Of a stretch of DNA of 64,000 nt, positions 16,147 to 34,158 are shown one piece after another. The notes below the pieces were generated by a model. That model was not told where the DNA came from, did not search any database, and worked only from the letters and a program-made list of their open reading frames with translations. The number at the start of each line of letters is the position of its first letter. The first letter of the stretch is position 1. This DNA is from Haloferax marisrubri (lineage in GTDB: Archaea > Halobacteriota > Halobacteria > Halobacteriales > Haloferacaceae). The stretch is from positions 33,461-97,460 of the forward strand of contig NZ_LOPW02000006.1 in NCBI RefSeq assembly GCF_001469875.2, given 5' to 3'. The translations under genes and the position numbers were made by a program.

Positions 16147-16917
16147 TCACGAGTAGGTCGCGCGGATGCCGATGACGCGGGCGGCCTGCGTCACCATCTC
16201 CGGGACCTCCGTGTGGTACCACTCGCCTTTCATCCGGGTGGTCGGCCCCGAGACGCTGATCGAACCGAGGATGGTCTCGTCGTCGGAGAGAATCGGCGCG
16301 CCGACCGCCCGCATGCCGGTGATGCGTTCTTCGTCGTTGAAGGCGTAGCCGCGCTCGCGAATCGTCGCCAACTCGGCTTCGAGGGCGTCGCGGTCGTCTA
16401 TCGTCTTCGTCGTCAGGCGCGTCAGCTCGCCGTCGAGAATCTCGTTTCGGCGCTCCTCGTCGCAGAACGCGAGGTAGGACTTGCCGACCGACGTGGTGTG
16501 GAGGTCGACTGTCGTGCCGATGTGCGAGTCGGTCTGGAGGCCCTGTTCGGACTTCACCTGATAGATGTAGACGCCGCGGCCGTTCTCCTCGACCATCACC
16601 TGCCCGCGCTCGCCGACAGCCTCGACGAGGTCGTCCATCTCGCCGATGGAGGCGTGATACAGCGCGTGTCGCGTCCGGGCGTGGTCGCCGAGGTCGAGGA
16701 ACTTCAGACCCAGCGCGTACTCGTCGCCCTGCCTGACGACGTAGCCGAGTTCCGCGAGCGTCTTGAGGTGGTTGTGGGCCGTGCTCTTCGAGATACCGAG
16801 GTCGTTCGCTATCTCCGACACCCCGCTCGCGTCGTGGTCTCTGATGTGTTCGACGATGCCGAACGAGGTTTTCGTAGCGCCGATTGTTCCCGCCGCATTG
16901 TTCCCGTCCGTGTTCAT
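16147..16917 (-). CDS. IclR family transcriptional regulator
   Basis: A 256-residue regulator with an N-terminal winged helix (TKTSFGIVEHIRDHDASGVSEIANDLGISKSTAHNHLKTL, quoted in part) and the C-terminal IclR effector domain (VEENGRGVYIYQVKS, HTTSVGKSYLAF, RERGYAFNDEERITGMRAVGAPI, ISVSGP). IclR proteins bind small carboxylates or aromatics and control catabolic genes. It heads the minus-strand side of the catabolic cluster and is the best candidate regulator for it. I prefer the ATG at 16917 (MNTDGNN); an ATG nine bases upstream (16926) is equally possible. Confidence 0.9.
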   Translation of the reverse strand: MNTDGNNAAGTIGATKTSFGIVEHIRDHDASGVSEIANDLGISKSTAHNHLKTLAELGYVVRQGDEYALGLKFLDLGDHARTRHALYHASIGEMDDLVEAVGERGQVMVEENGRGVYIYQVKSEQGLQTDSHIGTTVDLHTTSVGKSYLAFCDEERRNEILDGELTRLTTKTIDDRDALEAELATIRERGYAFNDEERITGMRAVGAPILSDDETILGSISVSGPTTRMKGEWYHTEVPEMVTQAARVIGIRATYS

Positions 16918-16986
16918 AGTTATCAATCAGAGAGTGAGGTAATAATTGTTGGCGTTTCGTTCGGGTGGGCCGAACGAACGTTCGGT

Positions 16987-18360
16987 TTATCGCCGCGTCA
17001 GCGCGGCGACGGTCTCGCGGACCGGGTTCGAACCGACGGACGAGAGCGCGTCGAGCGCCGCATCTGCGGCGTCTTCGCCGAGGCCGAACGCGAGCAGGTC
17101 GCGGTTGCGCGCGGCGAGGTCGGACTCCGACAGCGGGTCGCGGTAGTCGCCGCGGGGGTACTCGCGCTCGCCGACGTAGCGGCTCCCGTCGCGGGCGGTC
17201 ACTTCGACGCGTGCGCCCCAGTCGTCAGGGAAGGCCCGCTCGAACGCCTCGTCCGCGTGCAGGTGGACGCGCTCCGAGAGCGACTGCACGGCCTCGTCAC
17301 CGAGCGCGTCGTCGAGGAAGTCGCCGAGTTCGACGCTCCCGTCCGCGACCCAGCGGGCGAGGACGTACGGCGTCGAGAACTTCGCCGCGGTGAGCGTCTC
17401 GGGCCGCGCGTGGCTCATATCGACGCCGTTGCGGTAGGTGTACACGTCGATTCGGTCTACGTCGTCCGGCGCGAGTTCGTCCGCGCCGGCGTCCCGCAGG
17501 GCGTCGAGCGGGGCGTGGGTGTAGCGACACGACGGGTACGGCTTCTGGTAGGCCTCGGTAATCCACCAGTCGTCGCCGAGCGAGTCGAACAGGGCGGCGA
17601 ACTCGCCGTCTCCGAGGAGCGTTGCGAACGGGTCGTAGACGGCCTCCATCGCCGCGGGGGACCCGCGGAGGCCGGCGGCGGCCAGCGTCGCGGCGCTTAC
17701 GCCGGCCTGCGCGGAGAACCCGGCGGTGACGTTCCGCGACGGCGCGCCCTCAGCGAAGGGGTCGTGCATGGAGACGACCGCGAGGTTCAGCGCGGTGCGG
17801 ACCGTCTCGCGCACCTCGTCGGGCGACTGCCCCGCACAGACGGCGGCGGTCAGCGCCGGGCCGAGCGTCGTCCACGTGGAGTGCGGGTCGCGAACGAGCC
17901 ACGGAATCGCCTCGTTCATCCGCGCCTTCATGGCGAAGATGGCGTACTCGAAGCGCGCGCAGAGTTCGTACGAGCGGACGCAGGCGTCCACGAACGACTC
18001 GCCGTCGATGTCGTGGGCCTCGGCGACGCCGACCGCGCCCGCGACGATGCTCGCGCCCACGTGGCCGCCGCGGTTGTGACCCTCCTCTATCTCCTGTGTT
18101 ATCGCCGCCGTCGCGTTCAACAGCGCCGCCTGCGCCGGGTCGACGCGGCGGTCGGTCCCGAGGGCGGACGCCGGACCGTCGGCGAGCGACGCGTCGCGGA
18201 AGACGCCCGCGTGTTGTGGGGCGGCCGCGCCCGCGACGGTCGCCGCGAGCACGTCCGCGACGATTCGCTCCCCGTCGGCGCGCACGTCGTCGGGTAGCTC
18301 GTCGGTCAGAAAGCCGTACACCTGTCGTTCCCAGTCGCGGACTGGTTCCTGTGAAATCAT
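16987..18360 (-). CDS. MmgE/PrpD family protein (first of tandem pair)
   Basis: A 457-residue protein of the MmgE/PrpD superfamily, which includes 2-methylcitrate dehydratase and cis-aconitate decarboxylase. Recognisable parts are the N-terminal VADVLAATVAGAAAPQH (family: DxxGxxLAG), a glycine-rich VGASIVAGAVGVAEAHDIDG, and GDDWWITEAYQKPYPSCRYTHAPLDAL, the typical KPYPSCRxxH motif near residue 268. The C terminus holds the second alpha/beta domain (RVEVTARDGSRYVGEREYPRGDYRDPLSESDL). It lies 27 bases downstream of a second family member. The reaction is likely a hydration, dehydration or decarboxylation of a tricarboxylate-like acid. Confidence 0.9.
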   Translation of the reverse strand: MISQEPVRDWERQVYGFLTDELPDDVRADGERIVADVLAATVAGAAAPQHAGVFRDASLADGPASALGTDRRVDPAQAALLNATAAITQEIEEGHNRGGHVGASIVAGAVGVAEAHDIDGESFVDACVRSYELCARFEYAIFAMKARMNEAIPWLVRDPHSTWTTLGPALTAAVCAGQSPDEVRETVRTALNLAVVSMHDPFAEGAPSRNVTAGFSAQAGVSAATLAAAGLRGSPAAMEAVYDPFATLLGDGEFAALFDSLGDDWWITEAYQKPYPSCRYTHAPLDALRDAGADELAPDDVDRIDVYTYRNGVDMSHARPETLTAAKFSTPYVLARWVADGSVELGDFLDDALGDEAVQSLSERVHLHADEAFERAFPDDWGARVEVTARDGSRYVGEREYPRGDYRDPLSESDLAARNRDLLAFGLGEDAADAALDALSSVGSNPVRETVAALTRR

Positions 18361-18387
18361 GGTCTGAATACGTGGTCGAAGGGCGGC

Positions 18388-19716
18388 TCAGGCCCGAGTG
18401 AGGGCGCAGAGCACGCGGGGGGCGGCGGGTTCGGTCGCCGCGGTCCAGAGTCCGTCGACGCCGCCGTCGCCGATGACGGGCGCGACGAGTCCGTCGAACT
18501 TCGCTCTGAGTTCCGATTCGGTGAAGGGGTCGTGTTCGCCGCCGCGGGCGGCGCGCACCTCGCGGGCGTACTGCTCGCCGTCGGTCGTCTCGACGGTGAC
18601 GCGCGCGCCGCGCTCGTCGGGTGTGCGGGCCGCGAACTCCTCGGTGGCGACCACGTCCACGCGGCGGGCGAACCCGAGGGCGGCCTTCGTCAGCGCCTCG
18701 TCGGTGAACGCGTCCTTGCCGGTCTCGCCGGCCGTCAGCGCCGAGGCGACGGCGAAGGGAACCGAGAACTTCGCCTGCAGGGCGTTCTCGGGCGCGGGTT
18801 CCGACAGCGCGGCAGCGGCGGGGTACGTCTCCACGGTGACCGACTCGATGTCGGCCGCGCCGACGCCCGTCTCCTCGACGAGGAGCGCCACGGCGTCGAG
18901 GGCGGCGTGGGTGTAGCGGCAGGCCGCGTGGACCTTGAAGTAGCCGCGCTCGATTTCCCAGCGCTCGCCGAGTCCGTCGGCGAGGGCGCTCCGGTCGGGA
19001 CCGTCCGCGGCGACGGGTTCGAGGTGTCGGGCCACGCCGTCGTCGAGGCCGGTGAAGCCGGATTCGGCTTGATCGACCGCGAGCAGGCCCGAGAGGTTGC
19101 TCATCCCGACGTAGCCGTTCCTGACGGTCGCGCCCTCGGTGGCCGCCTCGAACCGGGTGTGCTGGGCGTAGTTCGCCGCCATGCGCATCGCGTCGAGCGT
19201 CGTCTCGGCGTCGAGGCCGCGGAGTCGGGAGACGGCCGCGGCGGTTCCGACGCCGCCCCACACGCCGTGGGGGTGGAGGCCGTCGGCGAGCGGGACCACC
19301 GTCTCGGCGGTGCGGACCGCCGCCTCGTAGCCGGCGACGAACGCCGTCAGGAACTCGTCGCCGCTTCGGTAGGCCGATTCGCCGTCCGCGAGGAGCGCGG
19401 GCAGGACGTGAATCGCCGGATGGCCGGCCGCGAAGCGGTGGCCCTCGTCGAGTTCGAGGACGCTCCCGGCGGCCGCGTTGACGAACGCGGCGCGGTACGC
19501 GGTGGTCCGCTCGCCCGCGGTCCCCATGATGGTCGATTCGCCGCCGTTCTCGTCGGCCCACCGGCGCGCTAACGCGGTGACCGCGGGGTCCGACGCGCCG
19601 CCCAGCACCGCCCCGATGGTGTCGGCGACGACGAGGGACGCGCGGTTTGCGACCGACGCGGGGAGGTCGGCCCGGTCGAGGTCGGCGACGAACGACGCGA
19701 GCGCTTCGTCGGTCAT
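18388..19716 (-). CDS. MmgE/PrpD family protein (second of tandem pair)
   Basis: A 442-residue paralogue of the neighbouring protein. The N-terminal VADTIGAVLGGASDPAV, TTAYRAAFVNAAAGSVLELDEGHRF and HPAIHVLPALLADGES match the superfamily. The substrate motif here is GYFKVHAACRYTHAALDAV in place of KPYPSCRYTH, so the two copies differ at the expected active-site loop and probably act on different substrates or as partners. The stop of the upstream ABC ATPase gene region begins two bases away (19718), and the whole minus-strand arm is tightly packed, consistent with one transcript with the importer genes. Confidence 0.9.
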   Translation of the reverse strand: MTDEALASFVADLDRADLPASVANRASLVVADTIGAVLGGASDPAVTALARRWADENGGESTIMGTAGERTTAYRAAFVNAAAGSVLELDEGHRFAAGHPAIHVLPALLADGESAYRSGDEFLTAFVAGYEAAVRTAETVVPLADGLHPHGVWGGVGTAAAVSRLRGLDAETTLDAMRMAANYAQHTRFEAATEGATVRNGYVGMSNLSGLLAVDQAESGFTGLDDGVARHLEPVAADGPDRSALADGLGERWEIERGYFKVHAACRYTHAALDAVALLVEETGVGAADIESVTVETYPAAAALSEPAPENALQAKFSVPFAVASALTAGETGKDAFTDEALTKAALGFARRVDVVATEEFAARTPDERGARVTVETTDGEQYAREVRAARGGEHDPFTESELRAKFDGLVAPVIGDGGVDGLWTAATEPAAPRVLCALTRA

Positions 19717-19717
19717 C

Positions 19718-20422
19718 TCAGACCCCGAGGTACGCCTCGACGACGCCCTCGTCTTCGAGGAGTTGGTCGCCGTCGGCGGTCATGCTGATGCGGCCGTTCT
19801 CCATGACGTAGCCGCGGTCGGCCAGTTTGAGCGTCTGCTGGACGTTCTGTTCGACCATGAGGACGGTCATGCCCTGCGCGTGGATGTCCTCGATGACGTC
19901 GAACACCTCTTGGACGAGGTGCGGCGCGAGGCCGATGGAGGGCTCGTCGAGGATGAGCAGGTCCGGTTCGCCCATGAGCGCGCGGGCGAGGGTCAGCATC
20001 TGTTGTTCCCCGCCGGACATGGTGCCGGCGCGCTGGTTCTTGCGCTCCGCGAGCCGGGGGAACAGCTCCAGCATCTCGTCGAGGTTCTCCTCGCGGTGCG
20101 CCTTCGCCTCCTCGGTCTGCGCGCCGAGAAGCAGGTTGTCGATGACGGTCATGTTGGTGAACAGGTCGCGGTTCTCCGGGACCTGCACGATGCCGCGCTC
20201 GACGATTTCGTGGGACGCCTTCGAGTGAATCGCCTCGTCGCGGTAGGTAATCTCGCCGTGGCTCGGCGAGAGGATGCCGCAGATGGTGCGCATCGTCGTG
20301 GTCTTGCCCGCGCCGTTCGAGCCGATGAGCGCGACGATTTCGCCCTCTTCGACGTGCATATCGACGCCGTGGAGCACTTCGATGTCGTCGTAGCCGGCGC
20401 GGACGCCGCTCAGTTCAAGCAT
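19718..20422 (-). CDS. livF: Branched-chain-amino-acid-type ABC transporter ATP-binding protein
   Basis: A 234-residue ATPase of the LivF class. Walker A is GSNGAGKTTTMRT, the Q-loop region includes VPENRDLFTNMTV, the signature is MSGGEQQML, and Walker B is LLILDEPSIGLAP. It works at the cytoplasmic side of the membrane with LivG to power the LivH-LivM permease. It overlaps livG by eight bases. Liv-type importers also carry amides, urea and small organic acids, so the substrate need not be an amino acid; the surrounding genes suggest a cyclic amide or carboxylate. Confidence 0.95.
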   Translation of the reverse strand: MLELSGVRAGYDDIEVLHGVDMHVEEGEIVALIGSNGAGKTTTMRTICGILSPSHGEITYRDEAIHSKASHEIVERGIVQVPENRDLFTNMTVIDNLLLGAQTEEAKAHREENLDEMLELFPRLAERKNQRAGTMSGGEQQMLTLARALMGEPDLLILDEPSIGLAPHLVQEVFDVIEDIHAQGMTVLMVEQNVQQTLKLADRGYVMENGRISMTADGDQLLEDEGVVEAYLGV

Positions 20423-21254
20423 CGACGTCGAACCCCCCGATGTAGGCCTCGATGACCCGGTCGTCTTCGACCACCGTCTCCGGTGCGCCGAAGGCGATGC
20501 CCTTCCCTTGGTCCAGCACTTTCACGTAGTCCGAGATGTTCATGATGGCTTTCATGTCGTGTTCGATGATGAGGAGGCTCGTCCCGCGCTCGCGCAGTTG
20601 GCGGAACAGGTCGAGCATCTGCTTCGACTCCGACGGGGTGAGCCCCGCCATAATCTCGTCGAGGAGCAGGATTTCCGGGCGCGTCGAGATGGCGCGAGCG
20701 AGTTCGAGGCGCTTCTGTGCGCCCACGGTGAGTTCGCCCGCCTCCTCTTCGGCCTTGTCCGCGAGCCCGACGAATTCGAGGTTCTCCATGGCGATTTCGC
20801 GCGCCTCGCTCCGGCGGCGCGTGTGGATGTGCGCGCCGACCATCGCGTTCTCGACGACGGTCAGTTCCTCCAGCGGGCGTGTGATTTGGAACGTCCGCGC
20901 CAGCCCCGCCCGCGCGATTTTGTGCGCCGGGAGGCCGGAGATGACCTCGCCGTCGAGTCTGACGGTCCCGCTCGTCGGCGGGAACGCCCCGCTGATGCAG
21001 TTGAACAGCGTGGTCTTGCCCGCGCCGTTCGGCCCGATGAGGCCGATAATCTCGCCGCGGTTGACGGTCATATCCACGTCGTCGAGCGCCTGCAGGCCGG
21101 AGAAGCGCTTGCCGACGCCTTCGACCGACAGAATCTGCTCGCCGTCGCGGTCGATGTCGGCGTCGGGCGAGTCGCTCCGCGGCGCGTCGGCGTCCGGCAC
21201 GTCCGCGGATTCCGCGTCGGCGTCGGGCGCGTTCGTCTCGTCTGCCGACATCAC
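20415..21254 (-). CDS. livG: Branched-chain-amino-acid-type ABC transporter ATP-binding protein
   Basis: A 279-residue ATPase of the LivG class with a 40-residue acidic N-terminal extension. Walker A is GPNGAGKTTLFNCISG, GLARTFQITRPLEELTVVENAMVG is the usual LivG segment, the signature region is LTVGAQKRLELARAI (the LSxGxQ motif appears as LTVGAQ), and Walker B is LLLDEIMAGLTP. The Glu after Walker B Asp is present (DE). It overlaps livF by eight bases and livM by four, so translational coupling is likely. Confidence 0.95.
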   Translation of the reverse strand: MMSADETNAPDADAESADVPDADAPRSDSPDADIDRDGEQILSVEGVGKRFSGLQALDDVDMTVNRGEIIGLIGPNGAGKTTLFNCISGAFPPTSGTVRLDGEVISGLPAHKIARAGLARTFQITRPLEELTVVENAMVGAHIHTRRRSEAREIAMENLEFVGLADKAEEEAGELTVGAQKRLELARAISTRPEILLLDEIMAGLTPSESKQMLDLFRQLRERGTSLLIIEHDMKAIMNISDYVKVLDQGKGIAFGAPETVVEDDRVIEAYIGGFDVDA

Positions 21255-22327
21255 TCGCTCACCTCCTCGTCACCGCGGACGCGCTTCCAGAGGGCGCGTG
21301 CCTGACTCGGCCAACTCACGACGCCGCGCGGCGAGTAGATGACGATGGCCACGAGGAACGCGCCGTAGATGATGCGGTCGAGGCCGTTGATGTCGGAGAA
21401 CGTCGTCCGCGCGATTTCGCTGACGGGCGTGACGATGAACGAGCCGACGATGGGCCCCAGAAGCGTCCCCGGTCCGCCGACGACGGCGGGGAGGAGCAGT
21501 TCGACGTTCTTGAACAGCGCGAACACGGTGTCCGGGCGGATGGTGTTGAAGTACATCGACCAGTAGGCACCGCCGAGGGCGGTGAAGAAGGCGCTGACGG
21601 CGACGCCGATGAGCTTGTACCGGAAGCTCGGCACGCCGACGCTGGCGGCGGCCCGCTCGTCCTCGCGGATGGCGAAGAAGTACAGCCCGACCCACGAGTT
21701 CTTGATGACCCACGAGACGAGCGTCACGACGAGCAGGAAGCCGACGATGAGGTAGTAGTACGGCAGGTCGTTCTGGAACTGGAAGGCCACGAGGCCGTAC
21801 TCCGCGCCGTAGTCCCGCGGGAACGGCTTGAAGTAGCCGTTGGCCCCGCGGAGTTCCGACATGTTGGTGACGACGAAGCGGAGCAGTTCCGCGAACGCGA
21901 GCGTCGCCAGCGCGAAGTAGTGGCCCTGCAGTTTGAAGCGAAACGAGAGCGCGCCGATGACGAGGCCGTAGCCCGCGGCCAGGACGCCCGCGACGAGCAT
22001 TCCGACCCACGGGTTGACCGCGAAGTCGACGAGCAGTTTCTGGGTCGCGTACGCGCCGATGCCGAAGAACGCCGCGTGCCCGAAGGAGAACTGCCCGGTG
22101 TAGCCGGACATGATGTTCCACGACTGGGCCGTGTAGGCGTAGATGACCGTGAGGATGAGCACTTTCAGGCTCAACAGCGCCGCGAGTTCCATCCCGGCGA
22201 CGTCGATTTCGATGATGACCGGGAGCGCCGCGAGCAGGCCGAACAGCGCGACGCCCTTCACCAGCGGGGCGTACCGTTGTTCGTCGAACGTCCGGTAGCG
22301 GTCGCGGACGGACTCGATGGCGCTCAC
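21251..22327 (-). CDS. livM: Branched-chain-amino-acid-type ABC transporter permease
   Basis: A 358-residue integral membrane permease with about nine hydrophobic segments, beginning after a 20-residue polar N terminus. Typical LivM stretches are WNIMSGYTGQFSFGHAAFFGIGAY, SFRFKLQGHYFALATLAFAE and LLPAVVGGPGTLLGPIVGSF. It pairs with LivH to form the membrane channel. The start overlaps the end of livH by four bases. The short C terminus (RVRGDEEVSE) is cytoplasmic by analogy. Confidence 0.93.
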   Translation of the reverse strand: MSAIESVRDRYRTFDEQRYAPLVKGVALFGLLAALPVIIEIDVAGMELAALLSLKVLILTVIYAYTAQSWNIMSGYTGQFSFGHAAFFGIGAYATQKLLVDFAVNPWVGMLVAGVLAAGYGLVIGALSFRFKLQGHYFALATLAFAELLRFVVTNMSELRGANGYFKPFPRDYGAEYGLVAFQFQNDLPYYYLIVGFLLVVTLVSWVIKNSWVGLYFFAIREDERAAASVGVPSFRYKLIGVAVSAFFTALGGAYWSMYFNTIRPDTVFALFKNVELLLPAVVGGPGTLLGPIVGSFIVTPVSEIARTTFSDINGLDRIIYGAFLVAIVIYSPRGVVSWPSQARALWKRVRGDEEVSE

Positions 22328-23289
22328 GCCTCAGCACCTCCGAAGAGTCCCTCGGGCTTGACGAGGAGCGTCCCGATGAAAAGCAGGAAGATGAGCACCT
22401 GCGCGGTGGTTCCGGGGAGGTAGTAGCCGCCGAACACCTGAATCATCCCGACGATGAGGCCGCCGACGAACGCGCCGGGGAACGAGCCGAGGCCGCCGAG
22501 GATGACGATGACGAAGGCGTTGATGAGGTACGTCTCGCCCGTGAAGGGGTCGAATCGCTGGAACAGCGCGATGGAGCCGCCGGCCACGCCGGCCAGCGCC
22601 GCGCCGATGCCGAAGGTGAGGTAGTTGATGCGGCGGACGTTGATGCCGACGTAGCGCGCGCCGTCGCGGTTGTCGGCCGTGCCGCGAATCTTCCGGCCGA
22701 GGTCGGTCCGGTTCAGGAACGCCCGCACGGCGAGCATCGTCCCGAGCGCGATGACGAGCGCGTAGAACTGCCCGAGCGGGATGAAGACGCCGCCGACCTG
22801 TATCGAACCGAGCGAGAGTTCGACCTGCTGGGGGTCGGGCGTGAACACGATTTCGATGGCCGACTGGATGATAAAGAGGACGCCCAGCGTGGCGATGAGC
22901 TGGTTCTGCTGGGGGGCCTCGATGATGGGTTCGACCGTGAGCACGTGGACCACTACCCCGAGGACGAACAACACCGCGGCGGCGATGGGGATGCCGAGGA
23001 ACGGGCTGATACCCGCCATCTCGGAGACCAACCACACCGAGTACATCCCGACGACGAGGAAGACGCCGTGGGCGAAGTTGATGACGTCCATCACGCCGAA
23101 TATCATCGTCAGCCCGAGCGCCGTCAGCGCGTAGACGCCCCCGAGCAGGAGGCCGAACGCGAGCAACTGCAGGAGGACGGGCTCCAGATTGGTGATGTCG
23201 GTCAGGAACTGTACGAACGGGTCGATGAATCGGCCGAGGCCACCGCCCTGCAGCGGCAGCGGCGCGACCGATGTGACTAGGTGTCCCAT
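22324..23289 (-). CDS. livH: Branched-chain-amino-acid-type ABC transporter permease
   Basis: A 321-residue LivH-type permease. It has multiple hydrophobic segments and the family stretches FGLLLGGVYALTALGLTMIFGVMDVINFAHG, ATLGVLFIIQSAIE, AVRAFLNRTDLGRKIRGTADNRDGARYVGIN and VIVILGGLGSFPGAFVGGL (each quoted in part). I take the ATG at 23289 (MGHLVTSVAP) as the start; a frame opening 30 bases upstream (23319) adds a charged stretch and lies closer to the substrate-binding gene. It is the first permease gene after the binding protein. Confidence 0.93.
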   Translation of the reverse strand: MGHLVTSVAPLPLQGGGLGRFIDPFVQFLTDITNLEPVLLQLLAFGLLLGGVYALTALGLTMIFGVMDVINFAHGVFLVVGMYSVWLVSEMAGISPFLGIPIAAAVLFVLGVVVHVLTVEPIIEAPQQNQLIATLGVLFIIQSAIEIVFTPDPQQVELSLGSIQVGGVFIPLGQFYALVIALGTMLAVRAFLNRTDLGRKIRGTADNRDGARYVGINVRRINYLTFGIGAALAGVAGGSIALFQRFDPFTGETYLINAFVIVILGGLGSFPGAFVGGLIVGMIQVFGGYYLPGTTAQVLIFLLFIGTLLVKPEGLFGGAEA

Positions 23290-23383
23290 GCGGTTTCTAC
23301 GCTCGGGAATTGTTGGCAACCCCCATAAAAGGTGGCTATCGTTCGAGACGGTTCGTTGACGTGACGGCGGACGCGGGTAGCGG

Positions 23384-26291: not shown

Positions 26292-26525
26292 GCACTCTGC
26301 TAGGTAGACTCTATCGTAAAACTACCGCATCCGGCGGTGTCGGCACCACCGCGACCCCTCCGCGTCACCGCCACGTCCGCCGGTTTCGGAAGCGCGTGCG
26401 TGAGAACAATTCCCCGTCGCTCCTGTGGGCGTGTCTGTCGTCGTCCCGACCCGGACGTTCAGGAACGGCAGACAGTCTGAAACGTCGGTGTGAAAAACTA
26501 TGTGTGTCGAGAACACCCATACCGC

Positions 26526-26927: not shown

Positions 26928-27901
26928 GCGACCGAACCGCGGTCCTCTTCGCGCTCCGCGACGACCCCTCGCTCGTCGTCCGCGCCGAGGAACTTGGCTA
27001 CGAGTCGGCGTGGGCCGCCGAGGGACAGGGCAAGACCGCCTTCGGAAAGCTCGAACGCTGGGCCGTCCACACCGAGGAAATCGGCCTCGCGACCGGCATC
27101 GTCAACGTGTTCTCGCGGACGCCGGCGGCGCTCGCGGCGGCCGCGGCGACCCTCGACGACCACTCCGACGGGCGCGCGATTCTCGGCCTCGGCGTCGCCC
27201 ACCCCGGCGTGGTCGAGACGTTCCACGGCGTCCCCTTCGACCGCCCGCTCTCGCGCCTCCACGAGTACGTCGAACTCGTCCGGCGCTACCTCCGCGGCGA
27301 GGCCGACTCCTTCGACGGGGAGTTCTTCTCGCCCGAGCGCACGAGTTTCTGGGACGCCTTCGAACCCGTCCGCGAGGAGATACCCATCTACAACGGCGCG
27401 CTCGGCCCGGCGAACGTCCGACTCACCGGGCAGGTCGCCGACGGCTGGCTCCCGAACCTCTACCCGCGCCCGCAGTTCGAGGAGGCGCTGGAGTGGCTCG
27501 ATACGGGGGCCGACCGCGCCGGGCGCGACGCGAGCGACGTGGACGTGGCGATGTACGTCCTCACCGCCGTCCACGACGACGCCGACGAGGCGCGCCGGGC
27601 GGCGGCCGAACACGTCGCCTACTACCTGCGCGACGTGCCGGGCTACTACGACCGCGCGGCCGAGCAGGCCGGCTTCGGCGACGAAGTCGAAGCGGTTCGG
27701 GCCGCGCCGACGACGGAGGCCGGGGCGCGCGAACTCTCGGCCGACTTCCTCGACCTCGTGGCGCTGGTCGGCACACCCGACGACGTGCGGGGGCGACTCG
27801 GCGAACTCCGCGAGATGGGCGTCGACCTGCCGGTCGTCCGCGCGCCCGCTGGCGTCGACCGCGAGTGGGTGGCGCGGACGCTGGAGGTGTTCGCCCCGTA
27901 A
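26924..27901 (+). CDS. LLM-class (luciferase-like) flavin- or F420-dependent oxidoreductase
   Basis: A 325-residue TIM-barrel oxidoreductase. Typical stretches are VVRAEELGYESAWAAEG, EIGLATGIVNVFSRTPAALA, GRAILGLGVAHPGVVE and VRLTGQVADGWLPNLYPRPQF. Members use FMN or F420 and include monooxygenases such as RutA (pyrimidine ring opening) and F420-dependent reductases; haloarchaea have F420, so either is possible. It overlaps the NTF2-like gene by four bases and precedes an isochorismatase-type hydrolase, an arrangement reminiscent of RutA-RutB, though similarity to RutA itself is not evident. Confidence 0.85.
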   Translation: MSDRTAVLFALRDDPSLVVRAEELGYESAWAAEGQGKTAFGKLERWAVHTEEIGLATGIVNVFSRTPAALAAAAATLDDHSDGRAILGLGVAHPGVVETFHGVPFDRPLSRLHEYVELVRRYLRGEADSFDGEFFSPERTSFWDAFEPVREEIPIYNGALGPANVRLTGQVADGWLPNLYPRPQFEEALEWLDTGADRAGRDASDVDVAMYVLTAVHDDADEARRAAAEHVAYYLRDVPGYYDRAAEQAGFGDEVEAVRAAPTTEAGARELSADFLDLVALVGTPDDVRGRLGELREMGVDLPVVRAPAGVDREWVARTLEVFAP

Positions 27902-27967
27902 CATGACCTCGCCGAACCGTGCCGTACTTTTATGCTGGATGCCACCGCATCTCAAGCGAAGCGAGTC

Positions 27968-28627
27968 ATGACAGACCGTATCTGGGAGGACCTGCTATCT
28001 GAACAGGATAAACAGGTCATCACGAAGGCTGGTTACGACAAGGAGGGCGCCTCGTCGTGGGAGTCCCGCGGCATGGGCGAGAACCCGATGGTTCTCGTCA
28101 TCGACATGCAGCGGCTCATCGTCGGCGAGAACGCCCCCATCCTCGACGCCATCGAGGAGTATCGCACCGCGATGGGCGACATCGCGTGGGACGCCATCGA
28201 ACACATCGACCCGTTCCTCGACTTCGCGCGGGAGCAGGGGCTTCCGGTGACGTACACGCGGGTCGTCCCGTCGAGCTACGACGACCCCGACCACCCCGAC
28301 CTCGACATCGTCGACCCGGTCGCGCCCGAGGAGGGCGACGCCGTCGTCGACAAGTCCTACGCGTCGGCGTTCTACGGGACCGACCTGCTCTCGCGGCTCG
28401 TCCGCGGCGACCACGACTCGGTCATCATCGTCGGCAACTCCACGAGCGGGTGCGTCCGTGCCACCGCGGTGGACGCAAAGCAGAACGGCTTCAGCGTCAT
28501 TCTGCCGCAGGAGTGCATCTTCGACCGCATCGAGGCGTCGCACAAGATCGGCCTCCTCGACCTGTGGATGAAGTACGCCGAGGTACTGGAGACCGAGGCG
28601 GTCGAGGAGTGGGTCGAGACGCTATGA
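27968..28627 (+). CDS. Isochorismatase-family cysteine amidohydrolase
   Basis: A 219-residue hydrolase with the family catalytic triad: Asp46 in LVIDMQ, Lys129 in VDKSYASAF, and Cys162 in NSTSGCVRATAVDA. The pattern resembles N-carbamoylsarcosine amidase and related carbamoyl- or amide-cleaving enzymes. It likely removes ammonia and CO2, or an amide nitrogen, from an opened ring product. I use the ATG at 27968 (MTDRIWEDL) because an earlier start at 27932 would overlap a TATA-like stretch (CTTTTATGC). Its last bases overlap the next start in ATGA. Confidence 0.88.
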   Translation: MTDRIWEDLLSEQDKQVITKAGYDKEGASSWESRGMGENPMVLVIDMQRLIVGENAPILDAIEEYRTAMGDIAWDAIEHIDPFLDFAREQGLPVTYTRVVPSSYDDPDHPDLDIVDPVAPEEGDAVVDKSYASAFYGTDLLSRLVRGDHDSVIIVGNSTSGCVRATAVDAKQNGFSVILPQECIFDRIEASHKIGLLDLWMKYAEVLETEAVEEWVETL

Positions 28628-30024
28628 CCCACGACCTCGTCATCTCGAACGGCACCGTCGTCACCCCCGAACACGGCACCTTCGAGGCCGACGTGGCGGC
28701 CGACGGCGAGACCATCTCGGCCATCGCCTCGCCCGGCACGCTCTCGGGCGAGACGGAAATCGACGCGACGGGCAAGCACGTGCTCCCGGGCGCAATCGAC
28801 CCGCACACCCACCACGGCATCTACCGCGGACTGGAGGCCGACGCCGAGTCCGAGTCCAAGTCCGACCTCGTCGGCGGCGTGACCACCATCGGGAACTACT
28901 TCCGGCGGGCCGGGGCCTACGAGGAGATTATGCCGGGCTACTTCGACGAGGCGGAGCCGAACTACTACCACGATTACTTCTTCTCGCTCGGCCTGCTCTC
29001 GATGGAGCATATTGAGGAGATTCCGACCATCATCGAGGAGTTCGGCATCACGACGTTCAAGTGGTACATGAACTACAAGGACGCCGCCCGCGAGAAGTTC
29101 GGCGTCGACTGCGACATGCACGACGACTTCGGCGACGCGTTCGTCCGGAAACTCGCCGAACAGGACGTGCCGACGACGCTCGGCTACCACTCCGAGAACG
29201 TCGAAATCACGAACGCGCTCGCCGGCGGCAACGTCTACGTCACCTCCGAGTCCGACGACACCGACGCCGACGCCGACGAGGGCTACGAGGTGATGGTCGA
29301 GGAGTTCCCCGGCTACGCCGAGACGCAGAGCATGGTCGCCGGGGCCGCGCTCGCCAAGGTCCACGGCTACGACGACCGCTTCTACGCGGTCCACATCTCC
29401 GCCGGGGGGACGGCCGACGAACTCGCCGCGCTCCACGACGCGGGCTACCGGGCGTGGGGCGAGACGTGCATCCACTACCTCGCGCTCACCACCGAGGAGT
29501 GCGACGAGCGCATGAAAGTCAACCCGCCGGTCCGGTCGAAAGAAGACCAAGAGACGCTCTGGGAGCGCCTCGCCGACGGCACCATCTCGACTATCGGCAC
29601 CGACCACTGCGCCAACCTCGCGGAGAACAAGTTCGGCGACGGCATCCGCGACAGCCTGCTCGGGTTCCCCTCGACGCCCGTGATGCTCCCGCTCATCCTC
29701 TCGGAGGGCGTCAACGAGGGCCGCATCTCGCTCGAACGCGCCGTCGAGGTGACGAGCACCAACGCGGCGAAGGCGTTCAATCTCTACCCCAAGAAGGGGA
29801 CGGTCAGAGTCGGCAGCGACGCCGACCTCGCCGTCGTCGACCTCGACGAGACGAAGACGGTGACGCCGGAACTGTTACACAGCGTCAGCGGCTACTCCCC
29901 CTACGAGGGCCGAGACGTCACCGGCTGGCCGACTCAGACCGTCGTGAAGGGCGAACTCGCCTACGACGACGGCGAGATAGTCGGCACGAAAGGGCACGGA
30001 ACCCACATCGACCGCCCGGTGTGA
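28624..30024 (+). CDS. Dihydropyrimidinase/hydantoinase-type cyclic amidohydrolase
   Basis: A 466-residue metal-dependent amidohydrolase. The metal site PGAIDPHTHHG gives His61 and His63, Lys146 in FKWYMNY is placed as the carbamylated bridging lysine, and GYHSEN, VHISAGG and GTDHCAN supply the remaining ligands. The ending GTVRVGSDADLAVVDLDE is typical. Such enzymes open cyclic amides such as dihydrouracil, hydantoin or allantoin. It overlaps the preceding amidohydrolase by four bases, making a probable two-step ring-opening and deamidating pair. The natural substrate is unknown. Confidence 0.9.
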   Translation: MTHDLVISNGTVVTPEHGTFEADVAADGETISAIASPGTLSGETEIDATGKHVLPGAIDPHTHHGIYRGLEADAESESKSDLVGGVTTIGNYFRRAGAYEEIMPGYFDEAEPNYYHDYFFSLGLLSMEHIEEIPTIIEEFGITTFKWYMNYKDAAREKFGVDCDMHDDFGDAFVRKLAEQDVPTTLGYHSENVEITNALAGGNVYVTSESDDTDADADEGYEVMVEEFPGYAETQSMVAGAALAKVHGYDDRFYAVHISAGGTADELAALHDAGYRAWGETCIHYLALTTEECDERMKVNPPVRSKEDQETLWERLADGTISTIGTDHCANLAENKFGDGIRDSLLGFPSTPVMLPLILSEGVNEGRISLERAVEVTSTNAAKAFNLYPKKGTVRVGSDADLAVVDLDETKTVTPELLHSVSGYSPYEGRDVTGWPTQTVVKGELAYDDGEIVGTKGHGTHIDRPV

Positions 30025-30154
30025 GCCAGCGACCCGACCCGCCGCCCCACTAACAACGCGGACTGACCGGCCACAGCCGACCGGGCACACGGCCACCCAC
30101 ACGCACCACCAGACGACCACCACACGCGACACAGAACGAGAAGACACACACGAC

Positions 30155-31360
30155 ATGACGAACGACACGAACGGACCACTCGACGGCCTCGTCGTCCTCG
30201 AAGCCGGGTCGATGATATCCGGCCCGACCGTCGGCCGCTTCATGGCCGACTTCGGGGCGACGGTCATCAAAATCGAACACCCGGCGTTCGGCGACCACAT
30301 CCGCCGCTTCGGTCCACAGAAAGACGGCGTCGGCCTCTGGCACAAGTACCTCTCGCGGAACAAGCAGTCTGTCACCCTGAACATCTCCACCGACGAGGGC
30401 GCGGCGGTGTTCGAGGACCTCGTGAGCGAGGCCGACCTCCTCATCGAGAACTTCCGACCCGGCACGCTCGAACGCTGGAACGTCGGCTGGGAGCGACTCT
30501 CCGAGGTCAACGACGACCTCGTGATGCTTCGGATGTCCGGCTTCGGACAGACCGGCCCGTATTCCGAGCGCCCCGGCTTCGGGACGCTCGCGGAGGCGAT
30601 GTCCGGCTTTGCTTACCTCAACGGCTTCCCCGACTCGCCCCCGTTGCTCCCGCCGACCGGCCTCGCTGACAACATCGCGGCGCTGTTTTCGACGTTCGCG
30701 GTGATGTTCGCGCTCTATCACCGCGACGTCCACGGCGGCGGCGGCCAGTACATCGACACGAGCCTCATCGAACCCATCTTCGGCCTGCTCGGCCCGCAAC
30801 CGCTCCGCTACGACCAACTCGGCGAAATCGAGTCGCGGTCGGGCAACCGCTCGACCTCGTCGGCCCCGCGGAACGTCTACCGGACGGGCGACGACCGCTG
30901 GGTCGCCATCTCCGCGAGCGCGCAACCGCTCGCGGAACGGACGTTCGACGCCATCGGCCGCCCCGACCTGAAAGACGACCCGCGGTTCGAGACCAACGAG
31001 GACCGACTGGAACACGTCGACGAACTCGACGCCATCATCCAAGACTGGATGGACGACCACAGCCGCGAGGAGGTGCTCGCGGCGTTCGAGGAGGCCGACG
31101 CGACGCTCGCGCCGGTGTACAACGTCGAGGACATCCTCAACGACGAGCACTACGCGGCGCGCGAGGCGTTCCTGACGGTCGACGACCCGGACCTCGGCGA
31201 GGCGGTCGTCCAGAACGCCTTCCCGAAGTTCTCGGAGACGCCGGGGCGGGTGGACCACCTCGGGCCGTCGCTCGGTGAACACAACGACGCGGTCTATCGC
31301 GACCGACTCGGCTACGACGAGTCGGTGCTTTCGGACCTCGAAGCGGAGGACGTGATATGA
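30155..31360 (+). CDS. CaiB/BaiF (class III) CoA-transferase
   Basis: A 401-residue CoA-transferase. The N-terminal segment GLVVLEAGSMISGPTVGRFMADFGATVIKIEHP (quoted in part) and the sequence NKQSVTLNISTDEG mark the family; Asp172 in TGLADNIAA is positioned as the catalytic aspartate that forms the mixed anhydride. These enzymes move CoA between dicarboxylates such as succinate and mesaconate, citramalate, itaconate or oxalate. It overlaps the next lyase gene by four bases. A gap of about 130 bases separates it from the cyclic amidase upstream. Confidence 0.92.
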   Translation: MTNDTNGPLDGLVVLEAGSMISGPTVGRFMADFGATVIKIEHPAFGDHIRRFGPQKDGVGLWHKYLSRNKQSVTLNISTDEGAAVFEDLVSEADLLIENFRPGTLERWNVGWERLSEVNDDLVMLRMSGFGQTGPYSERPGFGTLAEAMSGFAYLNGFPDSPPLLPPTGLADNIAALFSTFAVMFALYHRDVHGGGGQYIDTSLIEPIFGLLGPQPLRYDQLGEIESRSGNRSTSSAPRNVYRTGDDRWVAISASAQPLAERTFDAIGRPDLKDDPRFETNEDRLEHVDELDAIIQDWMDDHSREEVLAAFEEADATLAPVYNVEDILNDEHYAAREAFLTVDDPDLGEAVVQNAFPKFSETPGRVDHLGPSLGEHNDAVYRDRLGYDESVLSDLEAEDVI

Positions 31361-32316
31361 GCCTCCTCGACTCGATTCCGGAGCGCGTCCACGTCGTCGA
31401 GATGCTGCCCCGCGACGGGTTCCAGCGCCTCGACGAGTTCGTCCCGACCGACGAGAAAGTCGAGATAATCGACGCCCTCTCGGACACCGGCGTGGACGAA
31501 ATCGAGATTTCGTCGTTCACCCACCCGAAGGCCGTCCCGACCCTGCGGGACGCCGACGAGGTGGCGAAGCGAATCACCCGCCGCGACGGCGTGACCTACC
31601 GGGCGCTCGTCCCCAACCTCCGGGGCATGGAGCGCGCCGTCGAGGCCGAGGTTGACAAGGTGAACGCGCTCGTCACGGTGAGCGAGACCTACACGAGGAA
31701 AAACCAGAACCGCACCCGCGAGGAGGTGCTCGCGGAGATGGACGACATCGTCGAACTCGCCCACGACCACGGCATCGAGGTCGAAGCCGGGATGGGGACG
31801 AGTTTCTACTGCCCCTACGAGGGCGCAATCGACCCCGCGGAGACCCTCGCGGTCGTCGACAGCGTCGTCGAATCCGGCGTCGACGAGGTGACGCTGGCGA
31901 CGACGATGGGCCTCGCCAACCCGGTCGAAATCACGGAGCGCTTCACCGCCGCGTTCGAAGCCCATCCGGGCCTCGACATGGGCCTACATCTCCACGACAC
32001 GAACGGGATGAGCCTCGCTAACACGCTGGCCGCGATGGCCGTCGGCGTCGACCGCTTCGACGCCTCGGTCTGCGGGCTCGGCGGCGGCGTCGTCCTCCCC
32101 GGCGACATGTCGGGCGTCGGCAACACGCCGACCGAGGACCTCGTCCAGATGCTCGAACGCATGGGCGTCGGCCACGGCGTCGACTTCGGCCGCATCGAGG
32201 CGGCCGCCCACGACGTGTCCGACCGACTGGGCCTCGGCCTGACGAGTCACGTCCTCGCGGGCGGCACCGTCGAGGGCGTCCTCGACACCGTCGCGGCCGA
32301 CGGGGAGGAGGACTGA
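31357..32316 (+). CDS. HMG-CoA-lyase-like aldolase lacking the canonical catalytic Cys
   Basis: A 319-residue DRE-TIM-type lyase. VEMLPRDGFQRLDEFVPTDE corresponds to the HMG-CoA lyase opening (RDGLQ), SSFTHPKAVPTLRDADEV follows, and LHLHDTNGMSLANT supplies metal ligands His211 and His213. In HMG-CoA lyase the active-site loop is GLGGCP; here it is GLGGGVVLPGDMSGVGN, so the catalytic Cys is Gly244. A Cys sits just before (SVCGLGG, Cys239). Reaction chemistry therefore probably differs: it may cleave another acyl-CoA or hydroxy acid. It sits between the CoA-transferase and the hydro-lyase genes. Confidence 0.85.
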   Translation: MSLLDSIPERVHVVEMLPRDGFQRLDEFVPTDEKVEIIDALSDTGVDEIEISSFTHPKAVPTLRDADEVAKRITRRDGVTYRALVPNLRGMERAVEAEVDKVNALVTVSETYTRKNQNRTREEVLAEMDDIVELAHDHGIEVEAGMGTSFYCPYEGAIDPAETLAVVDSVVESGVDEVTLATTMGLANPVEITERFTAAFEAHPGLDMGLHLHDTNGMSLANTLAAMAVGVDRFDASVCGLGGGVVLPGDMSGVGNTPTEDLVQMLERMGVGHGVDFGRIEAAAHDVSDRLGLGLTSHVLAGGTVEGVLDTVAADGEED

Positions 32317-32317
32317 G

Positions 32318-33631
32318 ATGTCCGGCAAGACCCTCGCGGAGAAACTGCTCTCGGAGAAATCGGGCACCGACGCCCGCGCCGGCGACTACGTCGAAGCCGA
32401 CGTGGACGTGGCGATGGCCCACGACATCACCGGGCCGCTCGCGTTCCAGACGTTCGACGAGGTGACGGGCGACGACGGCGAGCTGTTCGCGCCCGACCGG
32501 ACCGTCTTTACCATCGACCACCACGCTCCCGCGGACGGGGTGCAGGCCGCGAACAACCACAACGCGGTCCGCGAGTTCGCGGCGGAACACGGCGCGAACC
32601 AGTTCGACGTGGGCGACGGCATCTGCCACGCCGTCCTCGTCGAGGAGGGCTTCGTCGGCCCCGGCGACCTCGTCATCGGGGCGGACTCCCACTCGACGAC
32701 CTACGGCGGCATCGGCGCGTTCGGGACCGGCGTCGGCTCGACCGACCTCGGAACCGCGCTCGCGACGGGCGAACTCTGGTTCCGTGTCCCGAAGACGCTG
32801 CGCTTCGAGGTCGACGGCGACCTCCAAGACGGCGTCTACGCGAAGGACCTCATCCTTCGATTCATCGGCGACGTGGGCTTCGACGGCTGTACCTACATGG
32901 CCGCCGAGTACGCCGGGAGCACCATCGAGTCGCTCCCGATTCACGAGCGCCTCGTCCTGTCGAACATGGCCATCGAGATGGGCGGTAAGACGGGCCTCGT
33001 CGCGCCCGACGAGCGGACCGAGTCGTACCTCGAACGCCAGACCGGGAACGAAATCGACCTCGCGGACGCGTTCGTCTCCGACGACGACGCCGACTACGAG
33101 GCGGTCCACAGCTACGACGCGGCCGACCTCGCCCCGCAGGTCTCGAAGCCGTCGAACCCCGAGAATGCGGTGGACGTGACCGAGGTCGCGGGCACCGAAG
33201 TCGACCAGCTGTTCGTCGGCACCTGCACGAACGGCCGGTACGAGGACATCAAAATCGTCGCGGACATCCTCGCGGGCGAGACCATCGCCCCGAACGTCCG
33301 GATGGTCGTCGTCCCCGCCTCGAAGTCCGTCTACCAGCACATGCTCCAGACGGGCGTCTTCCAGACGCTCACCGACGCCGGCGCGGTCATCCAGAGCGCC
33401 GGCTGTGGCCCCTGTGCGGGCTATCATCAGGGCGTCCTCGGCGACGGCGACGTCTGTCTCGCCACGGCGAACCGGAACTTCCCCGGCCGCGAGGGGTCGA
33501 TGGAGTCGTCGGTCTACCTGTCGAGTCCGGCGACCGTCGGCGCGAGCGCGCTGTACGGCGAAATCACCGACCCCCGCGAGGTCGAGACGAAACGCTACGA
33601 CGACACGGTCTTCGCGGAGGTGCTACCATGA
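32318..33631 (+). CDS. Aconitase-superfamily hydro-lyase, large subunit (LeuC/HacA type)
   Basis: A 437-residue large subunit of the short archaeal LeuC/HacA type. The [4Fe-4S] ligands fit GTCTNGR and SAGCGPCAG, and GADSHSTTYGGIGAFGTGVGSTDLG is the usual substrate-side stretch. It dehydrates or hydrates a 2- or 3-hydroxy di/tricarboxylate together with the small subunit encoded next. Isopropylmalate, homoaconitate and 2,3-dimethylmalate enzymes all belong here. The absence of LeuA or LeuB nearby and the catabolic setting argue against leucine biosynthesis. It starts two bases after the stop of the lyase. Confidence 0.88.
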   Translation: MSGKTLAEKLLSEKSGTDARAGDYVEADVDVAMAHDITGPLAFQTFDEVTGDDGELFAPDRTVFTIDHHAPADGVQAANNHNAVREFAAEHGANQFDVGDGICHAVLVEEGFVGPGDLVIGADSHSTTYGGIGAFGTGVGSTDLGTALATGELWFRVPKTLRFEVDGDLQDGVYAKDLILRFIGDVGFDGCTYMAAEYAGSTIESLPIHERLVLSNMAIEMGGKTGLVAPDERTESYLERQTGNEIDLADAFVSDDDADYEAVHSYDAADLAPQVSKPSNPENAVDVTEVAGTEVDQLFVGTCTNGRYEDIKIVADILAGETIAPNVRMVVVPASKSVYQHMLQTGVFQTLTDAGAVIQSAGCGPCAGYHQGVLGDGDVCLATANRNFPGREGSMESSVYLSSPATVGASALYGEITDPREVETKRYDDTVFAEVLP

Positions 33632-34158
33632 CGGACGCGTTCGCCGGCGACGGCGGCCGCCCGGACCCGGCCGAACCCGGTCGCGCGTGGGTCTTCGGCG
33701 ACAACATCGACACCGACCAGATAACCCCGTCGCGCTTCATCGTCTCGTCGGACCCCGACGAACTCGCCAGCCACGCCTTCGAGGACCTCAGGCCCGAGTT
33801 CTCCGAGTCGGTCGAGTCCGGCGACTTCGTCGTCGCCGGCGAGAACTTCGGGAGCGGGTCGTCGCGGGAGCACTCGCCGCTGTCGCTCGTCGGCGCGGGC
33901 GTCTCGGCGGTCGTCGCGCAGTCGTTCGCGCGCATCTTCTTCCGCAACGCCATCAACCTCGGCCTGCCGGTGCTCATCTGCCCCGGCGCGGACGCCATCG
34001 AGGACGGCGACGAGATTCACGTCGACCTCGACGCGGGCGTCGTGACGAATCACACGCGAGACGAGACCTACGAGGCGGAGGCGCTCCCCGAGTTCCTCCA
34101 GTCGCTCGTCGAACAGGGAGGACTGAAAGCCTACACGAAGGCGAAACTCGACGGCTGA
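33628..34158 (+). CDS. Aconitase-superfamily hydro-lyase, small subunit (LeuD/HacB type)
   Basis: A 176-residue swivel-domain small subunit. GDNIDTDQITPSRFIVSSD and ENFGSGSSREHSPLSLVGAG are the family hallmarks; the latter carries the catalytic Ser in GSGSSREH (residues 75-82). The specificity loop after the IxP motif reads RFIV (36-39). As I recall, methanogen LeuD has YLVY and HacB YLRT there, so the expected substrate differs from both. It overlaps the large-subunit gene by four bases and ends the operon. Confidence 0.88.
   Translation: MTDAFAGDGGRPDPAEPGRAWVFGDNIDTDQITPSRFIVSSDPDELASHAFEDLRPEFSESVESGDFVVAGENFGSGSSREHSPLSLVGAGVSAVVAQSFARIFFRNAINLGLPVLICPGADAIEDGDEIHVDLDAGVVTNHTRDETYEAEALPEFLQSLVEQGGLKAYTKAKLDG

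Follow-up and report, generated by a model that had tools for sequence, protein, structure and literature searches.

Which compound would a haloarchaeon take up and degrade with a gene block that joins a Liv-type importer to hydrolases, a CoA-transferase, a hydro-lyase and a C-C lyase? Such a block lies at positions 16147-34158 of the 64,000-nucleotide stretch of Haloferax marisrubri DNA analysed in this work (hereafter, the window). Its 17 intact genes form two divergent runs, a minus-strand run with iclR, two mmgE/prpD genes, livFGMHJ and a flavoprotein gene, and a plus-strand run with snoaL, a luciferase-like (LLM-class) oxidoreductase gene (luc), iso, dhp, caiB, hmgl, leuC and leuD. We propose, tentatively and with slightly less than even confidence, that this block would serve to import a small cyclic imide and degrade it completely via an alkyl-malate, the substrate and the activities being predicted from sequence. 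A previous, sequence-only reading had seen here one island for the degradation of a cyclic amide or N-heterocycle; all the families that it named are present as open reading frames, and its gene list lacked only the SnoaL-like gene at 26526-26927 (+).

Conservation of the block across haloarchaea

In a sample of 293 genomes drawn from the order of the window, orthologs of dhp with 62-100% identity were found in 22 genomes, the next-best matches being only 34-37% identical. The amidase gene iso (E <= 1e-40) was detected in 20 genomes, every one of them among these 22, and hmgl (E <= 1e-60) in 21, of which 19 also carry iso and two (G150 and G246) do not; dhp, iso and hmgl thus occur together in 19 genomes. 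Loci were fetched for 21 of the 22 dhp genomes, the window's own being left out, and their genes were counted with per-gene identity thresholds (Table 1). The order iso-dhp-caiB-hmgl-leuC-leuD was kept in 18 of these 21 loci, and the orthologous block was found in several haloarchaeal families. As a control, four loci around dhp paralogs of about 36% identity were inspected: the other enzyme and transporter genes were absent from them at E <= 1e-8, and three held an IclR relative of 44-46% identity. Since the orthologous core recurs in order across families, unlike the paralog loci, the block is a conserved unit and more than a chance cluster. The single island suggested earlier is therefore borne out; conservation of its members apart from each other, named at that time as grounds for giving it up, was looked for, and the members were found conserved together instead.

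Within the core all genes are co-directional, and neighbours overlap or lie 1-2 bases apart, with a dhp-caiB gap of 130 bases as the sole exception. The accompanying genes vary more among loci. The Liv importer is more distant at some of them (livF as low as 33-36%), and of the 17 fetched loci with luc, 15 have snoaL directly next to it; in G256 the two genes lie about 10 kb apart, and in G088 luc has no snoaL match beside it. Two genomes (G285 and G147) carry dhp without the other block enzymes, and in G015 (L051) dhp, iso, luc, snoaL and mmgE1 stand beside a different hydro-lyase.

Core enzymes and the predicted imide route

In the route that we propose, the Liv importer would take up a small cyclic imide, the flavoprotein would desaturate an alkyl-succinimide ring to the maleimide, and Dhp would open the imide to an alkyl-maleamate. 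Judging from its relatives, Iso would then release ammonia and yield an alkyl-maleate such as citraconate, which LeuCD, as suggested by the relatives and the loop of LeuD, would hydrate to an alkyl-malate such as (R)-citramalate, which we take to be the LeuCD product. CaiB would form the CoA thioester of this acid, and the HMGL relative would cleave the thioester to pyruvate and acetyl-CoA; methyl is the simplest alkyl group, and a larger side chain would give a larger acyl-CoA. The MmgE/PrpD proteins, the F420-type oxidoreductase and the SnoaL-like protein may prepare or isomerise the side chain. A cyclic imide is favoured because two hydrolyses would yield an unsaturated dicarboxylate directly. 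Among the ring classes offered by the sequence-only reading, hydantoin stands as a serious rival, although LeuCD and a malate-type lyase are hard to link to hydantoin, dihydropyrimidine or lactam; a cyclic imide, which was not on that list, would connect to them directly. The more general chemistry that it had suggested (cyclic-amide hydrolysis, deamidation, CoA transfer and C-C cleavage) finds support in the predicted functions, and its branched dicarboxylate intermediate is probable on the same grounds.

The ring opener Dhp aligns with 1yny at 205 bits over residues 7-464, including the HTH, Lys and His/His/Asp motifs, presumably the hydantoinase metal ligands; by family match and by these motifs it is a cyclic amidohydrolase of the D-hydantoinase/dihydropyrimidinase family. 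It scores below the dihydropyrimidinase/hydantoinase equivalog cut-off (TIGR02033, 250.7 bits versus 393.25). The amidase Iso is an isochorismatase-like cysteine hydrolase, with a Pfam match of 100.2 bits versus a cut-off of 27 and the TSGC nucleophile motif in 12 of 12 aligned rows. The solved structures matched by the single sequence were 4l07 (80.8 bits), which we take to be a maleamate amidase, N-carbamoylsarcosine amidohydrolase (76.0 bits) and 3ot4/3uao (73.7 bits). In the literature 3uao is named NicF, a maleamate amidohydrolase (PMC5806882).

The flavoprotein aligns with flavocytochrome c and has tyrosines at the positions of FccA Arg402 and Arg544, which, with the roles of the aligned residues, we assume to be the substrate arginines of fumarate reductase. 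Both tyrosines are present in 106 of 106 sequences (the window protein, 104 family members and one 32% relative, L047; five of 110 loci had no usable match), and two histidines are kept in 103 and 105 of the 106. The earlier label of a fumarate-reductase-type flavoprotein thus holds for the fold and not for the substrate arginines, and fumarate or tricarballylate chemistry was rejected, both arginines being replaced and the TcuA model giving 180.9 bits versus a cut-off of 369. With two tyrosines in place of arginines, an uncharged ring fits better than a dicarboxylate, and we infer that the substrate carries an uncharged carbonyl in the place of a fumarate carboxylate. The luciferase-like protein, which had been assigned to ring oxidation, does not sustain that role: its best families and solved relatives are F420-dependent (Mer-like), the RutA model is absent among its 25 NCBIfam matches, and RutA-like oxidation was rejected. 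The block is like the Rut pyrimidine pathway in combining an isochorismatase-family hydrolase with an LLM-fold protein, but it differs in the F420 type of the latter and in Iso, which falls far below the RutB cut-off (TIGR03614, 28 bits versus 377.95); the lack of a match to Rut had been anticipated correctly.

The hydro-lyase subunits are of the LeuCD/DmdAB type, LeuC scoring 530.2 bits versus a cut-off of 410.15 (TIGR02086) and LeuD 191.6 versus 108.95 (TIGR02087), and the HacB homoaconitase cut-offs are missed (177.9 and 143.3 bits versus 230). Among solved structures LeuD is nearest to the isopropylmalate/citramalate isomerase 3vba (175 bits), ahead of 2pkp, the small subunit of homoaconitase (130 bits). 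PSRFIVSSDP, the LeuD loop, pairs in the alignments with PARYLVYTKP of 3vba and PGPYLRTTDP of 2pkp, a valine taking the position of the arginine in the homoaconitase YLRT loop, and the F(I/L)V loop was kept in 20 of 20 LeuDs compared from HMGL-type blocks. Eubacterium barkeri ferments nicotinate anaerobically by way of dimethylmaleate hydratase and dimethylmalate lyase; the block is like this pathway in the predicted hydration of an alkyl-maleate by a LeuCD/DmdAB-type enzyme and in a malate-type C-C cleavage, which the bacterial loci described below would carry out with a lyase of the PrpB/phosphoenolpyruvate (PEP)-mutase superfamily. It is unlike it in that no B12-dependent mutase or pyridine hydroxylase was found among the 17 genes and in that the haloarchaea would use CoA activation and an HMGL.

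The HMGL protein passes the HMG-CoA lyase subfamily cut-off (NF004283, 285.6 versus 246 bits) and carries the loop GLGGGVVLP/GLGGGTILP in place of GLGGCP; the cysteine that it lacks is presumably the catalytic one of HMG-CoA lyases. GLGGG was seen in 12 of 12 haloarchaeal block HMGLs compared, and GLGGC in 1ydo, 6nds and 2cw6. In the D-citramalate branch of Chloroflexus, a succinyl-CoA:D-citramalate CoA-transferase is followed by an (R)-citramalyl-CoA lyase; in its enzyme types this branch resembles the pair of a CaiB-family transferase and an HMGL-family lyase that would give pyruvate and acetyl-CoA, and differs from the block, which would couple the pair to LeuCD and ring hydrolysis and has the altered loop in HMGL. 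One study reports a lyase from another family that accepts HMG-CoA as well as citramalyl-CoA, and states that the S form of citramalyl is the equivalent of the R form of HMG (PMC6689899); on that basis, (R)-citramalyl-CoA would be the counterpart for a lyase of the (S)-HMG-CoA type. Leucine synthesis or degradation was rejected as the role of LeuCD and HMGL. The genome encodes other LeuC-family genes of 30-37% identity, hence leucine synthesis, raised earlier as a separate known role that might dissolve the island, has its own candidates; no second HMGL above 31% identity was found in the genome.

Bacterial relatives, gene neighbourhood and variant loci

Eleven non-orthologous places were opened from amidase matches on plasmids. 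In seven of them (two in Variovorax, two in Methylobacterium, and those of Shinella, Antarctobacter and Hydrogenophaga) a ring opener, a PrpB/PEP-mutase-type lyase or a set of flavoprotein, MmgE and Liv genes stands beside the amidase; three (Neorhizobium, Aminobacter and Haloarcula marina) were without such neighbours, and one is unannotated, with a dhp-like match of 32%. The Variovorax row comprises Liv, MmgE/PrpD, flavoprotein, MmgE/PrpD, GTP-binding protein, dihydroorotase-family protein and isochorismatase; one of the two regions also shows an IclR gene. In Shinella and Antarctobacter, dhp and the amidase are joined by AcnA and a PEP-mutase-family lyase, and in Hydrogenophaga by PrpB. In regions seeded from the flavoprotein, an isochorismatase-family or cysteine hydrolase was annotated in all five that were opened, accompanied by HyuA/HyuB (Sulfitobacter, Azospirillum, Roseomonas), two polysaccharide-deacetylase-family proteins (Acidiphilium) or a dihydroorotase-family protein (M. 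currus). Among NCBIfam models the Azospirillum HyuAB are nearest to caprolactamase and the Acidiphilium proteins to the allantoinase PuuE, all below the cut-offs, and the six lyases scanned are nearest to PrpB models, five below the cut-off and that of Hydrogenophaga above it.

Genome contigs were also searched with a profile of the flavoprotein alignment, and the best 80 loci, by title from alphaproteobacterial genera or unspecified Proteobacteria, were screened by tblastn (E <= 1e-8, at least 40% of a query). Among these 80, a PrpB-like lyase was present in 62, an isochorismatase-type protein in 61, livF and livG in 56, leuC and leuD in 37, mmgE in 27, caiB in six, a deacetylase-type gene in four and dhp in two, together with hyuB in 61 and hyuA in 58, the first row of the profile being the Azospirillum form, which biases the loci towards HyuAB. 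Chemically equivalent enzymes are thus replaced between lineages. The three exchangeable types of opener (hydantoinase-type, HyuAB and PuuE-type) come from unrelated families that hydrolyse cyclic amides. The exchangeable hydratases LeuCD and AcnA act on unsaturated di- or tricarboxylates, and a PrpB-like lyase (without CoA) or CaiB with HMGL (with CoA) cuts the same bond of a substituted malate. In Aspergillus, the PuuE-related HxnM is described as a cyclic imidase whose product passes to a separate amide hydrolase (PMC9304392).

The genome that carries the window comprises 3.9 Mb across 26 contigs, and the window DNA matches Haloferax megaplasmid DNA. On plasmid pHG2 of H. gibbonsii the counterparts stand in identical gene order, with 97% identity for the amidase and 98% for HMGL. 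H. alexandrinus likewise has the genes of the block. Past the block follow a gene annotated as an MFS transporter in H. gibbonsii and then hutU, hutG, hutI and hutH (36986-42504), likewise arranged on pHG2. Since these hut genes adjoin the block in only three loci of the same genus among the 19 block loci searched, they were rejected as members of it.

Table 1. Genes of the block, with window coordinates, proposed identity and number of fetched loci (n = 21) in which each was counted. Flank depth was uneven (20 kb only for G281, G287 and G275; the G015 contig spans 15 kb), so that the counts for iclR, mmgE and liv are minimum values. LivJ was identified by Pfam scan; LivF, LivG, LivM and LivH were named via the H. 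gibbonsii annotation.
Feature	Position	Strand	Basis	Loci of 21
IclR-family regulator (iclR)	16147..16926	-	Pfam IclR_C/HTH_IclR; relatives of at least 45% identity	13
MmgE/PrpD family protein 1 (mmgE1)	16987..18360	-	Pfam MmgE_PrpD_N/_C	14
MmgE/PrpD family protein 2 (mmgE2)	18388..19716	-	Pfam; closest solved relatives IDS-epimerase and B. subtilis IRG1	12
LivF-type ATPase	19718..20422	-	Open reading frame; H. gibbonsii counterpart annotated ABC ATP-binding	
LivG-type ATPase	20415..21254	-	Open reading frame; H. gibbonsii annotation	
LivM-type permease	21251..22327	-	Open reading frame; H. gibbonsii annotation	
LivH-type permease	22324..23319	-	Open reading frame; H. gibbonsii annotation	
LivJ-type substrate-binding protein	23384..24709	-	Pfam Peripla_BP_6	
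FAD_binding_2 flavoprotein; proposed imide-ring dehydrogenase, not fumarate reductase	24858..26291	-	Pfam; Tyr at both FccA Arg positions	16
SnoaL-like protein (snoaL)	26526..26927	+	SnoaL_2	16
LLM-class F420-type (Mer-like) oxidoreductase (luc)	26924..27901	+	Family and solved-structure matches	17
Isochorismatase-family cysteine amidase (iso); proposed half-amide (maleamate-type) hydrolase	27968..28627	+	Pfam; 20/293 genomes	19
Dihydropyrimidinase/D-hydantoinase-fold cyclic amidohydrolase (dhp); proposed ring opener	28624..30024	+	Metal-ligand motifs; orthologs in 22/293 genomes	21
CaiB class III CoA-transferase (caiB); proposed activator of malate-type acid	30155..31360	+	Family match	18
HMG-CoA-lyase-family C-C lyase with altered loop (hmgl); proposed citramalyl-CoA-type lyase	31357..32316	+	Family match; 21/293 genomes	18
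LeuC-type hydro-lyase large subunit (leuC)	32318..33631	+	NF001614 and TIGR02086 above cut-off	18
LeuD/DmdB-type hydro-lyase small subunit (leuD), alkyl-type loop PSRFIVSSDP	33628..34158	+	TIGR02087 above cut-off; nearest solved 3vba	18

Some loci show further variants. The G015 locus (L051, 1364-10028) has a PrpB-like lyase (51% identical to that of Azospirillum) and LeuCD with a YLNT loop; it also encodes an acyl-CoA dehydrogenase, an ADP-forming acyl-CoA synthetase-like protein, a second amidohydrolase and a CaiB nearest to succinate-glutarate CoA-transferase. In G088 (L038, 2086-3358), a second and more distant LeuC/LeuD pair (41% and 46%) and an IclR gene adjoin the block. A plasmid of Natrinema zhouii (L080) carries relatives of the amidase (70%), luc, mmgE2 and Liv genes with a different amidohydrolase, and an HMGL relative (65%) elsewhere on the same plasmid. 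The two genomes with hmgl outside the iso set (G150 and G246, loci L175 and L176) hold the same HMGL subfamily (66%) adjoining a CaiB (49-50%); the GLGGG pattern was not found in these two HMGLs, and the match in G246 has an in-frame TAG. Neighbours include an acyl-CoA dehydrogenase and ETF in L175, and a PEP-mutase-family and a Lyase_1 protein in L176.

Alternative readings and biological meaning

A number of observations weigh against the imide reading. The parts of the block do not all travel together in bacteria: the Variovorax regions have neither LeuCD/AcnA nor a candidate malate-type lyase, those of Methylobacterium and Roseomonas have no LeuCD, and no flavoprotein relative was found in the fetched regions of Shinella, Antarctobacter and Hydrogenophaga that hold dhp and the amidase. 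An isochorismatase is missing from 19 of the best 80 flavoprotein loci, nine of them shorter than 20 kb, and the cysteine hydrolases of Sulfitobacter, Azospirillum and Roseomonas, unmatched by the window amidase at E <= 1e-4, would be at most distant analogues and not orthologs. Bacterial Dhp proteins share just 31-34% identity with that of the window, below the haloarchaeal paralogs (34-37%), and orthology of the ring opener between archaea and bacteria was not supported. Among the haloarchaea, the flavoprotein and luc are represented near the core of G264 only by distant relatives (30-34% and 40%, respectively); in G199 (L037, 8871-9389) the core is present with an amidase that lacks the first 51 residues, the flavoprotein, luc, snoaL, mmgE and liv genes were not found nearby, and the block looks like a decaying copy; and the YLNT-type LeuD of L051 is accompanied by a PrpB-like lyase. 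The MmgE/PrpD proteins, the F420-type enzyme and the SnoaL-like protein fit no definite step of the scheme, and the family profile of Iso scores higher with N-carbamoylsarcosine amidohydrolase (148.8 bits) than with 4l07 (140.2 bits).

This last result bears on a serious rival that we nevertheless consider rather unlikely, namely that Dhp opens a 5-substituted hydantoin (or a dihydropyrimidine) to an N-carbamoyl amino acid, from which Iso, acting like N-carbamoylsarcosine amidohydrolase, releases the amino acid, with LeuCD, CaiB and HMGL processing the carbon skeleton after a deamination encoded elsewhere. The best models and solved relatives of Dhp are D-hydantoinases, and HyuAB with an N-carbamoylsarcosine-type amidase recalls the creatinine/N-methylhydantoin route. 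The nearest Dhp relatives outside the block, in G285 (L052) and G147 (L053), are 60-62% identical and stand directly beside a same-strand HutU-like frame (598 aa in G285; 582 aa in G147, where the hutU model gives 817 bits), as would be expected of a hydantoin-propionate hydrolase, with a HutH-like gene nearby (43-48% and 42-57% identity to the hut genes of the window) and, in G147, a trimethylamine-methyltransferase-like gene. These surroundings recall the degradation of ergothioneine and hydantoin-propionate, possibly mark a haloarchaeal ergothioneine-type locus, and favour hydantoin as the substrate of Dhp. ErtD, the hydantoin-5-propionate hydrolase of ergothioneine use, is of the same amidohydrolase family, but the block has no HutU/HutH paralog of its own. 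Against a hydantoin, the ErtD models give 191-196 bits for the G285/G147 proteins and 169.3 (NF058538) and 165.7 (NF058539) for the window Dhp, versus cut-offs of 600 and 650. A hydantoin or dihydropyrimidine is further disfavoured because its product would be an amino acid, yet the 17 genes include no deaminating enzyme (ammonia-lyase or aminotransferase), and what LeuCD and the malate-type lyases require is a dicarboxylate that is unsaturated or bears a hydroxy group. The PuuE-related openers, moreover, count a described imidase among them (PMC9304392).

It is improbable, in our view, that two pathways lie side by side, with dhp and iso as a scavenging pair for amides or imides and caiB-hmgl-leuC-leuD as an independent alkyl-maleate module, and only locus and regulation in common. 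Such a module exists on pBB2 of Cupriavidus necator, with the four families in equal order, an HMGL that unlike ours keeps GLGGCP, and neither a ring opener nor an amidase or flavoprotein among the annotated genes up to 8 kb away; the HMGLs of G150 and G246, which lack dhp and iso orthologs, and the loose recombination of the bacterial parts point the same way. Set against this are the single tight run of the core and the confinement of iso, at the thresholds used, to dhp genomes, 19 of these 20 also having HMGL. Very improbable is a pyridine-derived glutarimide or aconitimide (citrazinate-type) that would lead to a tricarboxylate such as cis-aconitate, the hydro-lyase acting as aconitase or homoaconitase. 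AcnA does replace LeuCD in Shinella and Antarctobacter, and the LeuC family is shared with homoaconitase; however, the LeuD loop lacks the homoaconitase arginine and scores lower with its small subunit, aconitate would need neither CaiB nor HMGL, and no pyridine hydroxylase is found among the 17 genes. In favour of it, the nicotinate pathway of Aspergillus nidulans is described as ending with an imidase and an amidase: HxnM opens an imide and the separate amide hydrolase HxnN then gives ammonia and a dicarboxylate (PMC9304392). The block would be like that end in both steps and differs in having a hydantoinase-fold metalloenzyme as opener, an isochorismatase-family cysteine hydrolase as amidase, and a product that would pass onward via LeuCD, CaiB and HMGL.

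As the sequence-only reading had expected for haloarchaea, no characterised pathway with this gene set, nor any imide-degradation pathway in archaea, was found in the literature searched (open-licence papers, partial coverage), and the island is apparently undescribed. Returning to the imide reading, a more specific form of it, which we regard as a long shot, is that alkyl-maleimides or alkylidene/alkyl-succinimides from the breakdown of tetrapyrroles (chlorophyll, bilins, haem) feed a modular imide-mineralisation pathway in haloarchaea and proteobacteria. Interconversion of the succinimide, alkylidene and maleimide forms would then fall to the flavoprotein and the MmgE/PrpD proteins, with pyruvate and a short acyl-CoA as the products of the malate-type lyase. 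If so, the pathway would supply the microbial sink that is missing, in brines, in seawater and on leaf surfaces, for the last of the organic nitrogen in pigments. If the imide reading in general is right, a class of substrates that can be tested is named for a conserved gene set to which the literature searched assigns no function. A probable function would also follow for a flavoprotein subfamily whose members are annotated as fumarate reductase or FAD-binding protein, as well as for an HMG-CoA-lyase subfamily without the usual cysteine, and unrelated enzymes would fill chemically equivalent steps in two domains of life.

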